NCBI GenBank assembly: GCA_002780895.1
Contig: PEUB01000084.1
Span: 1 to 32,404 of the forward strand
DNA length: 32,404 nucleotides
From: Nitrospirae bacterium CG02_land_8_20_14_3_00_41_53
GTDB lineage: Bacteria > Nitrospirota > Thermodesulfovibrionia > Thermodesulfovibrionales > SM23-35
Reading direction: 5' to 3'
Every line of letters begins with the position of its first letter. Within the stretch, counting starts at the first letter, position 1. This document shows, piece by piece, positions 24,206 through 29,969 of this stretch. Both the position numbers and the translations under genes were made by a program. The notes beneath the pieces are model-generated. The model did not search any database. It was given only the letters and a program-made list of their open reading frames with translations, and was not told where the DNA came from.

Positions 24206-27097
24206 CTAAACCTCTACCAATAAAGGCGTATGTGTGAAGAGGAGGTAACTCTTTGTCTTTAAAGAGAGTATTTTTTCTACCGCACTCCTGTAAATATCCA
24301 TCTGGAATCTGTATTTATCAATGAGTTCCGGCAACTCTTTTTCGCTCACAGGAAAGGTTTTGTAATCATAGATATTAGCTGTATTGTCTTTTCTGATGAT
24401 CCTATCGATCCTGCCTTTAAAGACCGTGTTTCCTCTCTGCAGAATAAATGGAAGTTCTGCGTAGGAGTTCGTTTGTGGAAGGATCACATTTTTTATATAT
24501 CCTGATATCTCAAGCTTCTCAAAGTCTTTTTTTATAATCTCCATCAGTCTTTCTATATCTTTTTTAATATATAACTCATTTCTTAAAAGTATTAATGCCC
24601 TGCTGTCTATTCCATCAGGTCTTATTATCCCTTTTGCAAGCTCTTCAAAGAGACCGTGAAAGACACTTCCAAGCAAGACCCAGTCTTCACCATGTTTTAT
24701 TCTTATATCTAAATCTTCTGTAACATCGCGCCATTTGAGGGGCGGGATATATCCTGCCCCTTCATATGAAATGGGCTCTGTATATATCGGTTCAAACAAG
24801 GATTGTTCTGGAAATGCGTGAGGAGTAAATCCCCCCTTACCCCCCTTTGGTAAAGGGGGGATGGGGGGATTTTTAAAGACATTAATATCAGTTTCAGTCA
24901 TTATCTTAAGGGAGGAAAGGTGTTCAAGATTATCAGTAATATACGCAAGCCTTCCTGTATGTGCTTTTTCTTTCTTCGGCGCCCCAAGCATACACAGAAA
25001 ATCCCTTGCCCTTGTGACTGCAACATAGAAGAGTCTTTTCCCCTCTTCGAGTTCTTTTTCCTTTTGTCTCTGAAAATGTCCTATCTTTTTCCTCTTGATA
25101 GAATCTTCTTCGTATGCTAAAGAGATCCTTTCCCCATCTTCCTCTATCACAATTGAACTGCTTCTGGGAACATTATCCTCATCGAGTGATGGAAGGAATA
25201 CCATCGGAAACTGAAGGCCTTTTGCAGCATGCACGGTCATTATCTTTACAGCATTCATACCCTCGGTGTTAATGTTTGCCTTTGCCTCCTCTCCCAATCT
25301 CGCCTTAATGAGTTTTTCCCTGATATCAAGGCTGGAGAACCCCTGAGACTCATATTGTTCAATAAGTCCTATGAATTTTTTTATATTTACGTGTCTCTGT
25401 TTCTCCCAGTAATATTGCCAGCCTCTTGTTTCTGAAAGTGCATCTTCAAGAATGACAGCAAGAGGTGTATATGTGGATCTTTCGATCCAGCCTGAGATAA
25501 GATTAAAAGTCTCAGATAAGTGACGAGTCATTAATCCCCTCCTGCCCCCCTTTAGAAAAGGGGGGGAAGGGGGGATTTGAGATTGAAGTTTCTCTATTAA
25601 AGGCTGGTCACCTTTTTTATCAATCAGCCTGAATAATGTCCTGTAATCAATGCCAACAAGAGGTGACCTTAACAGACAGAATAGACTGTAATCATCTGCT
25701 GGGTCGACAATAAAAGAAAGTAGTTCTCTTAATACTGCAACTTCTGGTTCATCATAAAAACCAATACCTTTTAATACAATGAAAGGTATTCCTTCTCTTC
25801 TCAATGCATCTTCAAATATGCAGAGGTGTGTCCTTTTCCTTAAAAGTATTGCCATGTCACCATAAGTGCAGGCTCTTTTTGTCTCTCCATCCCATACCTC
25901 ATATTGATGATTAATAAGGGACTGAATCCTCTTTGATAAGGCTGATGCTTCCTGCTCACGCCTCATTTTTGTGCCTTCGCCGCCTTCTATTAGAATAAGT
26001 TCAACATGTCCATCCCCAACCCTTGTTGCCTCAAAGGGTGTATACCTGGTACGCCAGCTTTCATACATAGTAGGAGGCATTAATCTCTTAAAGACGCTGT
26101 TTATAAAGTTTATTATTTCAGGAAGACTTCTGTAGTTTTTCCGTATCTCTTCAAAGTAATATTCCTGATCAAGCCATTCAGAGAATCTTTCCTTTGCATT
26201 CTGAAATACACTTACATTTGCGCCCCTGAAGAGATAGATAGACTGTTTTTCATCTCCAACAAGAAAGAGAGTTGGTGTCTTCCCTGAGTCCCTTTTTGAA
26301 CCGATGCCCGAGCGCCATTCTTCTGTGAGTTTGTCTATAATCTTCCATTGAAGAGAGCTTGTATCCTGAAACTCATCCACAAGTATATGATCTGTATGTT
26401 CATCAAATGAATAGAGGATATTCTGCCATTCAGGATTTTTGACAAGTGCCTCGTATGTGAGTAATTCAAGGTCATCGAAATCAATGAGATGTTTTTCATG
26501 TTTTTTATCTGTGTAACGCCGTAAACATTGCGAATACAATTCAAGGATTTTCTTTTCTTCCTCTCCCTCAACAGGATGATTTTCTTTTAGCATAAGTTCT
26601 GGATGCGGTCTCCTGTTGTGTAGTTCATCAAGTATTCTGTAAAGACTATCCCAGCCTTTGATGCCCCGATTTTTTAGCATATCAAAAAAGAGACCAGGTT
26701 TATTTTTCTCTTCCATAAGACTTTCATAAACAGACTCAGACCAGAGAATGGATGTGCTGAATTCATCCATTACTTCAAGGGATGGGTCAAGGCCAAGTTC
26801 TATTGAAAACCGTTTTAGTAATTTAAGGCAGAACGAATGGATTGTGGATATGCGCATGAGCGGCATCTTCTCCCGGACATTCAGAAACATATCAGGATTT
26901 TCTTTTTCGAGTATTCTGAGAATCCTTTCCTTCATCTCTGCTGCGGCCTTCTCTGTAAAGGTTATTGCCAATATCTTTTCAATCTCAGAGCCGCCGAGCA
27001 GCAGGCTGACATAACGCCTTGCAAGCTTCTCAGTCTTTCCTGAACCAGCAGGGGATGAAATGATAACGCTTTTTGTTATATCAAGATACTTTTCCAT
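24206..27097 (-). CDS. addA: AddA-type helicase-nuclease subunit
   Basis: AddA with AddB resects double-strand breaks for RecA loading. This is a UvrD/Rep superfamily 1A helicase of 963 residues, shorter than B. subtilis AddA. Visible are the Walker A SPAGSGKT (15-22), AITFTEKAAAEM, DEFQDT (241-246), GDEKQSIYLFRGA (281-293), GLQFPMVFLP and FYVAVTRARD. The C-terminal RecB-like nuclease has D898 (GRIDRI), D911 and K913 (YDYKT), then YRFQMDIY. Two repeat-derived insertions lie at about residues 507-522 and 742-757, both in frame. The start overlaps addB by 17 nt. An alternative label is exodeoxyribonuclease V beta-like. Confidence 0.92.
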   Translation of the reverse strand: MEKYLDITKSVIISSPAGSGKTEKLARRYVSLLLGGSEIEKILAITFTEKAAAEMKERILRILEKENPDMFLNVREKMPLMRISTIHSFCLKLLKRFSIELGLDPSLEVMDEFSTSILWSESVYESLMEEKNKPGLFFDMLKNRGIKGWDSLYRILDELHNRRPHPELMLKENHPVEGEEEKKILELYSQCLRRYTDKKHEKHLIDFDDLELLTYEALVKNPEWQNILYSFDEHTDHILVDEFQDTSSLQWKIIDKLTEEWRSGIGSKRDSGKTPTLFLVGDEKQSIYLFRGANVSVFQNAKERFSEWLDQEYYFEEIRKNYRSLPEIINFINSVFKRLMPPTMYESWRTRYTPFEATRVGDGHVELILIEGGEGTKMRREQEASALSKRIQSLINHQYEVWDGETKRACTYGDMAILLRKRTHLCIFEDALRREGIPFIVLKGIGFYDEPEVAVLRELLSFIVDPADDYSLFCLLRSPLVGIDYRTLFRLIDKKGDQPLIEKLQSQIPPSPPFLKGGRRGLMTRHLSETFNLISGWIERSTYTPLAVILEDALSETRGWQYYWEKQRHVNIKKFIGLIEQYESQGFSSLDIREKLIKARLGEEAKANINTEGMNAVKIMTVHAAKGLQFPMVFLPSLDEDNVPRSSSIVIEEDGERISLAYEEDSIKRKKIGHFQRQKEKELEEGKRLFYVAVTRARDFLCMLGAPKKEKAHTGRLAYITDNLEHLSSLKIMTETDINVFKNPPIPPLPKGGKGGFTPHAFPEQSLFEPIYTEPISYEGAGYIPPLKWRDVTEDLDIRIKHGEDWVLLGSVFHGLFEELAKGIIRPDGIDSRALILLRNELYIKKDIERLMEIIKKDFEKLEISGYIKNVILPQTNSYAELPFILQRGNTVFKGRIDRIIRKDNTANIYDYKTFPVSEKELPELIDKYRFQMDIYRSAVEKILSLKTKSYLLFTHTPLLVEV
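24827..24872. repeat. C/G-tract palindrome inserted in frame in addA (copy 1)
   Basis: AAATCCCCCC and GGGGGGATTT flank CCCCCCTTT-GGT-AAAGGGGGG. On the addA strand it encodes NPPIPPLPKGGKGGF-type sequence (about residues 742-757) between the helicase and nuclease domains. I recognise PPLPKGGKGG as the translation of a widespread intergenic palindrome. It keeps the reading frame. Confidence 0.85.
25533..25577. repeat. C/G-tract palindrome inserted in frame in addA (copy 2)
   Basis: AATCCCCTCC, then CCCCCCTTT, a short loop, then AAAAGGGGGG and GGGGGGATT. It has the same architecture as copy 1, but is diverged. It encodes SQIPPSPPFLKGGRRGL (about residues 507-522) in a helicase region, without breaking the frame. 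Confidence 0.85.
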
Positions 27098-29969
27098 AAC
27101 TTATAACCGTCTTTTGTATATACGGGCAATACGGCCTTTCGGGACAATTCCTGCATGTTTGCTCATTCAATGGGGATGCAGAAAAATCTCCTCTTCTCAT
27201 CTTTAATACAGTCTCCTTGAGGAAACGGAGGCTTGCCTCTATATAATCCTCTATTGCCCGCCCAATTTTCCTGTCATTTTTTCCGGGAATCCATGATAGC
27301 TTTATATCCTTGAGTGAATAGATGCCTACACGTTCTATTTTATTGCCGAGCACCTCCATCAGCGCTGCATATAAGAATAACTGAAGTGTAGTGCCCTTTG
27401 TTATTACCTGTGAACCGCTGAATTGGATTGTACCTGTCTTGTAATCAATAAGCTCAACCTCATCAGTAAAGGGTTTATCATCTTGCAAACTTTGAACTTT
27501 GAACTTTGAACTTTGAACTTTCTTGTCTATCCTGTCAATCTTCCCTTTCAGTTTTATTCCCTTTATGATCTCGCCTTTAACCGATACCTCAGCATCCGTA
27601 AATGAATATCCTTCATCCGTGATTTTGCTTTCGACTTTATATATGTCTGGAAGGATCAAAAGGAATGTATTCTTTATCACTTTTTTCCAGTAATCTTCTA
27701 AAGGTTTATCAGAAAGGAGTTTGTCTATTATCTCTTCTGCTCTAATCCTAAGGTCATCTACATCTACAAATGGTTTTGATATCAGGGCTTCCATAATTTG
27801 ATGAGCTATAGTTCCAAGAAGAGATGCCTCGACCTCATACTCTTTTATCTCTAATGGCTCAAGCCTGAGGACTTTTTCTATAAAAAACCTCCTCGGACAT
27901 GCCCTGTAAGAATCTATGTCAGTGACCCTGATATAGGAGTTCTCCCCGAACTTATTTTTGATTAACTTTTCTCCGATACCTTCAATATCTTTTATATATG
28001 ATGTTAAAGGTATCTTGCCCTTTCTGTTAAGTTCTTCCTCCTTTGAGAAGATTCCATAAACCCTGTGTTTTACCTCTTTATTCCAGGGAAGGAACGGGGA
28101 TGGGAGAAAGAATCTATCACCTTCCATTACAGGATAGGAAAGGTGAAGGTTTTTGGTTGATTCTATTACTCCGTGGAATGTGAATTTTTGAAGTAATAAA
28201 TATTTCTTCAGGTTTACAAGACCAAATCGTGTCCTTACACTGTCAGGCAGTATATGGTCAATATCAGGCTTTGATGGTAAATCTCCGTCCCTGAGTCCCC
28301 CGAAGTAAAGATATTCAGGCTCAATACCCCTTAGCTCAAAAAGACCCATAATCTGAACGCCGGTACCTTCTATTTCTGTCTGTGTGGTGTTCAGGATATG
28401 TTTCATGGTATCTATAAATTGACGTAATGTGATGGGTAAAAAATTTGAAGCGTAAGGAGTGTTGTTGTGACTCTCGGTACGAGTCGATCCCGACGATTCC
28501 GAGAGGTTATCAATAAAGGAAAGTTCTTTTAGTATCTCAAGTGCTTGTTCTTTTAAATCAACTCCCTCGCTGACATCAGAGAAATCAAGGGCGGTCAAGA
28601 GTTTAATGATAACTTCGCTGTATTTGCTGAAGGTACCATTATTTTTTATAGATTCCAGCGGTGCAAGTTTTTTAAAGACCCATCGAAGTTCCTTTTCGAT
28701 ATTTGGTAATCTGTAGTCTTTTCTGGCTTCTGGCTTAAAGAGATTGAGCCAGACATCTTTTCCCTTAATTATTCCAGCCCTGAGACAGATATGAGGTATC
28801 CATTCCCTGAATGCTGAAGGCATATTTTTAAAATAGGGTGATATAAGACTTTGTGAAAATGAAAGTCTTGGGTAGTCGTCTGCCACTGATTCAAGCAGCG
28901 CAATCAGGTCGAGAAAGGGTCGTGTCTTTCCATCGGGTTTTGAGGTTGAAATGGTGTATGGAATACCGTATTTTCTGAAGATGCGGGCCATCATGTCCGA
29001 ATACTTGTGAAGCACAGGGGATGTAATTACTATTTTTTCTAAATTTCTTATACCCCCTGATATAAATGAGTTTTTAATATTTCTCGCAATGCCTTCAATC
29101 TCTTCCTCTATGCCGGGGTAAGGGTGATAAACGGGTTCCGTTGCATCTTTTTCAGGTGGCAGAAAGATTTCTTCAACTTGAAAGTAACTCTTTATAAAAT
29201 CTACATATCTATCTGTTATATTTGAATAATTTATGTCATAAGGTATTGAGATAAGGATATCTTTTGCATTTTCTATCAGTGCTTTTAAGACTGCTTCCTC
29301 TGACCTGGTAAGTTCATAAAATCCATCGAGGATAAGGGTATCATGGCTGTAACTATGCCTCTTAATCAGTTCAGGACAGACTGCCATCACATCATTTTCA
29401 TCCGCAGCAGAATATTTATTCAGAAGTTCTTGATATGCCTTAAATATACTGAGGGCTTCCTTTGCTCTGACCGTAACCTCTTCAGGTATGCCGAGTTCAT
29501 GAAAAATAGACTTAAGCTCATTGCTGACAGTTTCTATGTTTTTGCCTGTATGATGCTGTTTAATCTCGTTGATAAAATTGGTAATGATAGATGAAAAACC
29601 AATACCCTTTTCTGATAGCCTCGATATTATGATAGGTAACAGAGATTGGGGTATGATTTTTTTGTCTTCATAAATGGAATAAAGCCTTTTTGAGAGTTGT
29701 TTTATTGTCATCATCTCAGGGGGAATGTAACAACCCCCTGTGAGCCCAGTTAGATGCTTATTATCTAACTGGGTAAGTCTATGAAATCTCTGCTGACCGT
29801 CTCTTATCTTTCTCGGCGTAGGAGCGATATAAAGGATATTTGAATAATCAGGGCTATTTATGGAGCACCATGCAATAGTGCTACCATTTATATGCTCGAT
29901 TGCTGTTTTAAAGAGGTTCTCTGTAGAGCCTTTATGTTTAAATGGAATATAGAAGATTTTGATGGACAT
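27081..29969 (-). CDS. addB: AddB-type helicase-nuclease subunit with Fe-S nuclease domain
   Basis: AddB is the partner of AddA; it has an inactive helicase-like N-terminal region and a C-terminal PD-(D/E)XK nuclease. The 962-residue protein shows no Walker A. Nuclease residues include D812 (KGKIDRID) and D842/K844 (LIDYKTG). The four cysteines expected to bind a [4Fe-4S] cluster are C691 (RACPRRFF) and C939, C942 and C948 (CRNCPERPYC). Two repeat tracts are inside the gene, at about residues 489-500 and 816-827, the second within the nuclease domain. It is the first gene of the addBA operon. Confidence 0.9.
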   Translation of the reverse strand: MSIKIFYIPFKHKGSTENLFKTAIEHINGSTIAWCSINSPDYSNILYIAPTPRKIRDGQQRFHRLTQLDNKHLTGLTGGCYIPPEMMTIKQLSKRLYSIYEDKKIIPQSLLPIIISRLSEKGIGFSSIITNFINEIKQHHTGKNIETVSNELKSIFHELGIPEEVTVRAKEALSIFKAYQELLNKYSAADENDVMAVCPELIKRHSYSHDTLILDGFYELTRSEEAVLKALIENAKDILISIPYDINYSNITDRYVDFIKSYFQVEEIFLPPEKDATEPVYHPYPGIEEEIEGIARNIKNSFISGGIRNLEKIVITSPVLHKYSDMMARIFRKYGIPYTISTSKPDGKTRPFLDLIALLESVADDYPRLSFSQSLISPYFKNMPSAFREWIPHICLRAGIIKGKDVWLNLFKPEARKDYRLPNIEKELRWVFKKLAPLESIKNNGTFSKYSEVIIKLLTALDFSDVSEGVDLKEQALEILKELSFIDNLSESSGSTRTESHNNTPYASNFLPITLRQFIDTMKHILNTTQTEIEGTGVQIMGLFELRGIEPEYLYFGGLRDGDLPSKPDIDHILPDSVRTRFGLVNLKKYLLLQKFTFHGVIESTKNLHLSYPVMEGDRFFLPSPFLPWNKEVKHRVYGIFSKEEELNRKGKIPLTSYIKDIEGIGEKLIKNKFGENSYIRVTDIDSYRACPRRFFIEKVLRLEPLEIKEYEVEASLLGTIAHQIMEALISKPFVDVDDLRIRAEEIIDKLLSDKPLEDYWKKVIKNTFLLILPDIYKVESKITDEGYSFTDAEVSVKGEIIKGIKLKGKIDRIDKKVQSSKFKVQSLQDDKPFTDEVELIDYKTGTIQFSGSQVITKGTTLQLFLYAALMEVLGNKIERVGIYSLKDIKLSWIPGKNDRKIGRAIEDYIEASLRFLKETVLKMRRGDFSASPLNEQTCRNCPERPYCPYIQKTVISYGKVS
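27488..27522. repeat. Five-copy 7-nt tandem repeat (AACTTTG) inside addB
   Basis: Four perfect AACTTTG units and a fifth ending in C. On the coding strand 21 bases give seven codons, KVQSSKF, so any number of 21-nt blocks keeps frame. It encodes KVQSSKFKVQS within the nuclease domain, between the KIDRID and DYKT motifs. Confidence 0.9.
28471..28505. repeat. Palindromic GC-rich tract inside addB
   Basis: CTCTCGG (28471-28477) and CCGAGAG (28499-28505) flank a GTCG-ATCC-CGAC core. It is clearly more GC-rich than the surrounding gene and encodes a low-complexity SESSGSTRTES stretch at about residues 489-500. It looks like a third kind of in-frame repeat insertion. Confidence 0.6.

Follow-up and report, generated by a model that had tools for sequence, protein, structure and literature searches.

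A short palindromic repeat carried in frame by addA and other core genes in a Nitrospirota lineage

The window, that is, the whole 32,404-nucleotide stretch of DNA analyzed here, contains an addA gene encoding UvrD-helicase, UvrD_C, and PDDEXK domains. This is the sole AddA frame of the window, and the solved structure that matches it best is that of AddA 3u44 (E = 3e-61). Three palindromes lie within addA, and the partner gene lies next to it:

24206..27097, minus strand: addA (ATP-dependent helicase/nuclease subunit A), 963 aa, intact host frame
25532..25578, minus strand: palindrome copy 1 in reading order, 47 nt, AddA residues 507-522, QIPPSPPFLKGGRRGL
24827..24872, minus strand: palindrome copy 2 in reading order, 46 nt, AddA residues 742-757, KNPPIPPLPKGGKGGF
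24739..24760, no strand assigned: third palindrome in addA, unlike the other two, 22 bp, GGGGCGGGATATATCCTGCCCC, reads EGAGYIPP
27081..29969, minus strand: addB, partner gene, overlapping addA by 17 bp

A preliminary description of this DNA had reported two related palindromes about 0.7 kb apart in addA that leave its frame unbroken. Both statements were confirmed, with the copies spaced by 705 bp and 78% identical in an ungapped comparison. They represent one oriented imperfect palindrome, CAAATCCCCCC-N2/3-CCCCCCTTTNCTAAAGGGGGG-N2/3-GGGGGGATTAC, and each can be drawn as a two-tier hairpin, AAATCCCCCC.../CCCCCCTTT-NNN-AAAGGGGGG/...GGGGGGATTA, with RNA folding energies of -33.8 and -31.2 kcal/mol. 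Both would be translated as PPxPPxxKGGxGG loops. The third palindrome accounts for five residues (GAGYI) that are extra relative to all 16 orthologues compared. No copy of the element is present in addB, which harbors at ~27420-27480 a heptamer-type repeat read as KVQSSKFKVQSLQ in AddB; many proteins of the relatives have loops filled by similar in-frame repeats (VKSQKSEVRSQK, NSELRTPNSEL, IRNSKFEIRNSKFE).

The AddA orthologues of 16 relatives (50 to 81% identity) were aligned. Site 1 falls between two helices, in the 2B region. It is an insertion, as had been proposed, and a clean one of 45 bp, the stretch being wholly missing in 15 of the 16 orthologues. The exception is the relative G003, in which an insert of equal length, IPLNPTLIKDEEEDI, occupies this codon; the DNA of the insert is nonpalindromic, and 22 of 51 positions are identical to the addA copy (shuffle p ~0.001). 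Two origins are conceivable, decay of an element copy or an independent insertion; by its sequence the insert looks like a decayed copy, so that decay of the element probably also occurs. Site 2 lies in a variable linker with the helicase core on one side and the nuclease domain on the other; the linker is different in each genus and has heptamer repeats (TRHSSL...) in several relatives. The same peptides in distant AddA proteins lacking the palindrome were also looked for, and none of the aligned AddA proteins has them. Consistently with the suggestion that AddA accepts loops at both places, an AlphaFold model puts site 1 between helices 499-505 and 518-539 and site 2 in a low-confidence disordered linker (744-786). 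Because this model is weak (mean pLDDT 61, pTM 0.36), the surface exposure of the two sites is predicted from local disorder and from a sequence alignment to Bacillus subtilis AddA 3u44, which agrees with the model on the placement of site 1.

The pattern CCCCTTN{0,9}AAGGGG has 158 matches in the 2.0-Mb source genome versus 3 for the reversed control pattern and 2 for the control of a slightly narrower pattern, and chance or low complexity is thereby ruled out as their source. To locate the copies, we used 708 kb of DNA (40 stretches plus the window; 89% coding), in which 72 of 100 copies are within predicted genes; many stretches had been picked on contigs with known copies, which affects the copy density more than the ratio of copies in and out of genes. 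Thus, the earlier statement that this sequence is mostly intergenic elsewhere does not apply to this lineage; it describes other phyla better, one-armed intergenic forms being common there. Per kilobase, copies are ~3 times rarer in genes (72 in ~633 kb) than between them (28 in ~76 kb), indicating that genic insertion is tolerated after filtering rather than preferred. Of the two options raised previously, tolerance of insertion in an open frame is therefore retained, while selection for it is not. The addA pair is not special, being one case among ~100 in-gene copies genome-wide (an extrapolated number). The relative G004, from a second genus, gives the same picture, with 192 copies by pattern and 32 of 50 in predicted genes; within one family, the copy number ranges from 7 to 192.

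The host genes are core genes that are unrelated to each other. By their families, they are taken to be trpB, smc, mutL (two), murD (three), murE (two), ftsW, ftsQ, ddl, purL (two), carB, aroA, hisC, dapF (two), hemH (three), mnmA, rnr, prmC, valS, hypF, and a hydrogenase gene. In NCBIfam searches, 9 of 10 tested hosts score as the named families with full-length matches kept; TrpB, MurD, FtsW, SMC, MutL, AroA, MnmA, and RNase R give equivalog matches above the cutoff, and PurL is matched by NF003672. The genome assembly is fragmented (159 contigs), and genes were called by a simple script, which could raise the suspicion that the in-gene copies reflect spurious open reading frames (ORFs), assembly errors, or low-complexity chance. 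The same copies occur at the same codons in independent genomes, and, together with the equivalog hosts and the near-empty pattern controls, this leaves practically no room for such an artifact.

An alignment of 99 copies gave the consensus 5'-CAAATCCCCCC-N2/3-CCCCCCTTT-NCT-AAAGGGGGG-N2/3-GGGGGGATTAC-3', with an element length of ~46 to 48 bp. The element is oriented, because in these copies the identity of the outermost bases (A..A or T..T) correlates with that of the central triplet (NCT or AGN); the single matching end base is thus an asymmetry of the element, not a duplication. No direct repeat of 2 to 14 bp rises above background in the 99 copies, and an apparent 9- to 10-bp repeat in ftsQ did not generalize to a fixed target-site duplication. 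A longer element with extended arms (TTCACCTGAAAATCC...) was also discarded, since the flank profile and arm complementarity are at background beyond one base. The boundaries are inexact, with 0 to 13 extra nt depending on the site.

Within genes, the two orientations number 42 and 30, showing no preference relative to the gene, and three outer and only two central frames are used. Among the family-A copies with measurable ends, a length of 44 nt (AAT to ATT) is seen in 42 of 53 in-gene copies versus 2 of 11 intergenic copies (Fisher p = 2e-4), and this excess is a mark of frame selection. The 44-mers encode NPPxPP[FL]xKGGxGG (32 of 42), IPPxPPLxKGGxGD, and KSPHPPFxKGGxGGI. Because the element is near-palindromic, both orientations encode nearly the same peptide. 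Much the same peptide is found in all hosts, at sites that are loops, and a flexible Pro/Gly/Lys linker could itself be useful to AddA and the other proteins and be selected as such. We consider this very improbable, as the corresponding sites of relatives carry different peptides or lack one, three different frames are in use, and selection on the peptide leaves the conservation of silent sites (see below) unexplained.

Clean empty sites were identified in relatives for four insertions, ftsQ (+54), trpB (+57), aroA (+48), and addA site 1 (+45 bp), all of them multiples of three; the ftsQ and trpB gains are at sites without a pre-existing C/G tract. In purL and hisC, the element is in place of ~12 bp rather than a simple addition, and the segment replaced in purL is bounded by matching AAAT...ATT ends. 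In 107 orthologue pairs between the source genome and G004 (median identity 74%), 11 sites hold a copy in both genomes, and 9 and 7 in only one of the two. Some shared sites hold different subfamilies or frames at one loop, showing that loops are reused. The congeners G004 and G016 differ at ~7 of 13 comparable sites; insertion within one species was not seen. In murE, dapF, and purL, the loop in question is occupied by other repeat families in other genera. The MurE loop at residue 389 (L092, L091, and L095) differs from genus to genus, with few exceptions, in the palindrome or repeat family that it contains and is a hot spot for in-frame repeats. We also observed a nested palindrome, CCGCCTGAGGCGG, inside an element copy in larC of G001 (L175), and a composite, NNPPESPHTPLWKRD-NPPFPPLVKGGEGG-LFIKGGFKGEYKGGKGGF, in two different G004 genes (L392 14463 and 18231).

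In 17 orthologous pairs of copies shared between genera, fourfold-degenerate sites are 91% identical in the element versus 65% in the flanks (p = 2e-11), and 93% identical in the outer arms alone (p = 5e-8); the arms are 96% identical versus 79% for the spacers and loop (p = 2e-7), with all these values inflated by the choice of pairs in which both members retain a recognizable element. As silent sites and arms are better kept, something appears to act on the DNA or RNA hairpin itself. Judged from these alignments, selection on the protein would not produce the silent-site conservation, which would need either a hairpin function or copying between family members. The first option can be extended to a palindrome that is not mainly mobile and serves as a functional DNA or RNA hairpin (in mRNA stability, translation pausing, or chromosome structure), positioned and maintained by selection, in genes as well. 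A predicted RNA hairpin of about -34 kcal/mol accords with such a role, as does the conservation just described, within the limits set by the choice of pairs. It is nevertheless a rather unlikely account of the family, given that the element sits in unrelated host genes and at unrelated sites, which change from one genus to the next and even between congeners, that copy number varies so widely within one family, and that orientation relative to the gene is not constrained.

The second option, copying, has its own extension, in which the repeats arise or are homogenized by template switching during replication or by gene conversion, not by transposition. Arms that are kept while spacers drift, the replacement between matching ends in purL, the lack of a target-site duplication, and the other repeat families in the same murE and dapF loops would all be expected from it. 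The clean gains in ftsQ and trpB need a donor, however, and conversion alone cannot carry the element into a new gene, which makes this origin unlikely.

We favor, with a probability of roughly two in three, a model in which a palindromic, non-autonomous repeat inserted into genes as well as spacers and so became widespread in this Nitrospirota lineage, its in-gene copies being filtered afterwards. The DNA itself would move, rather than arising in place, and selection would purge the insertions that break the frame or the fold. To persist in a gene, a copy would need a net length that is a multiple of three, a stop-free central frame (one of two), and a loop or linker site. What is left after filtering would be a flexible, hydrophilic Pro/Gly/Lys loop, PPxPPxxKGGxGG, and, as either orientation yields the same peptide, the element would be an unusually tolerable passenger. 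The hairpin would then be maintained by selection or by copying among family members. It is tempting to go further, although we hold this as a tentative possibility only, and to assume that a selfish palindrome has made dozens of essential coding sequences into one concertedly evolving family. The hairpin, including its silent sites, would thus stay nearly unchanged across genera in trpB-, smc-, hisC-, or rnr-like genes, through inter-member copying or a selected hairpin function, and parts of core proteins would be under DNA-level, not protein-level, rules.

A single-strand (HUH/Y1-type) transposase acting in trans, as in the case of repetitive extragenic palindromes (REPs), may explain the insertion step, and such a mechanism fits because of the orientation, the hairpin, and the absence of a duplication. 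Each of the seven genomes searched has Y1_Tnp genes, but none of these genes lies near the element, so the mobilizer is a step that we infer. The 37 Y1_Tnp loci of these genomes (102 kb) contain only two palindromes, below the average of copy-rich genomes and none near the Y1_Tnp genes, and an association with REP-associated tyrosine transposase (RAYT) genes was rejected on these loci. In the source genome, seven stretches carry Y1_Tnp (REP-type transposase) genes (L074-L080), none adjoining a palindrome. Other candidates were set aside as well: no autonomous element with separated arms around a gene was found in ~1.1 Mb, no known RNA family matched above the gathering score, and a search for a plasmid origin gave no match.

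In a pattern scan of named genomes, the matches listed include Nitrospirota, Desulfobacterota, beta- and gammaproteobacteria, Methylomirabilota, Nitrospinota, and others; outside Nitrospirota, many of the matches listed are one-armed and intergenic, e.g., AAATCCCCCCTAGCCCCCCTTTTTCAAAGGGGGG. The pattern was also found in 78 stretches of viral contigs (L296-L373), in several cases inside long ORFs, as with GLSDRFAKSPLAPLFQRGED in L297, L300, L310, and L341. For 80 viral and 118 genome pattern matches in GC-rich organisms, assignment as genic or intergenic is unreliable due to the long spurious ORFs there.

It is well supported that the addA pair is part of a lineage-wide family of protein-coding palindromes, larger than the first observation. 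The family appears undescribed, and none of the papers searched prints its six common peptide cores. So far, protein-coding palindromes have been associated mostly with Rickettsiales, other bacteria contributing scattered intragenic REPs. The present lineage is free-living and non-reduced, and it has more than 100 copies, often several per essential enzyme. Empty sites, old shared sites, and putative decayed copies in sequenced relatives make loop gain by mobile DNA measurable, and allow the lifetime of such loops, and the upkeep of the hairpin for its own sake, to be assessed. PPxPPxxKGGxGG inserts are to be expected in Nitrospirota alignments, domain models, and structures. Each of them adds polyproline motifs, which normally need EF-P for smooth translation.

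Several known systems resemble the element in part. REPs tagged GTAG or CGTC have intragenic copies in Opitutus terrae, Rickettsia conorii, Xanthomonas recB, and others (PMC3733652). Like the element, they are short stem-loop repeats, some in ORFs including DNA-repair genes of the recBCD group, and no target duplication is expected of them; the one-armed hairpin forms between genes in other phyla are also REP-like. Unlike REPs, which are mostly intergenic, the element is mostly intragenic, is double-armed in this lineage, and has neither a GTAG or CGTC tag (its outward flank profile consists of CAAAT/ATTAC ends only) nor adjoining RAYT genes. Bacterial miniature inverted-repeat transposable elements (MITEs) with in-frame ORFs, such as Correia/NEMIS and ERIC (PMC2229807), share small size, non-autonomy, inverted repeats, and in-frame fusions, while the element is shorter, and has no TA target duplication, and no related insertion sequence was found for it. 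Mitochondrial genes of Nematomorpha likewise retain palindromes in coding sequence (PMC6649704), although there both arms encode conserved protein parts, whereas the element is an added loop.

A close parallel is provided by the Rickettsia palindromic elements (RPE) and those of Wolbachia, which are protein-coding palindromes (Ogata, Claverie and colleagues; reviewed in PMC2229807 and PMC10969869). Both RPE and the element are palindromic, are read in frame within the genes of conserved, unrelated proteins, also have intergenic copies, and have no known transposase and no established target duplication; the defining trait of RPE, an in-frame palindromic insertion in unrelated conserved proteins that is missing from the orthologues of relatives, is found here as well. 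The element differs in belonging to Nitrospirota, not Rickettsiales, in having 72% of its copies in genes, in encoding the same peptide in both orientations, and in its conserved silent sites. It is also set apart by length (~46 to 48 bp versus 105 to 146 bp for described RPE), its sequence being unrelated as far as known. Shorter than RPE, and with neither the tag nor the RAYT genes by which REPs are recognized, the element is filed under neither class.
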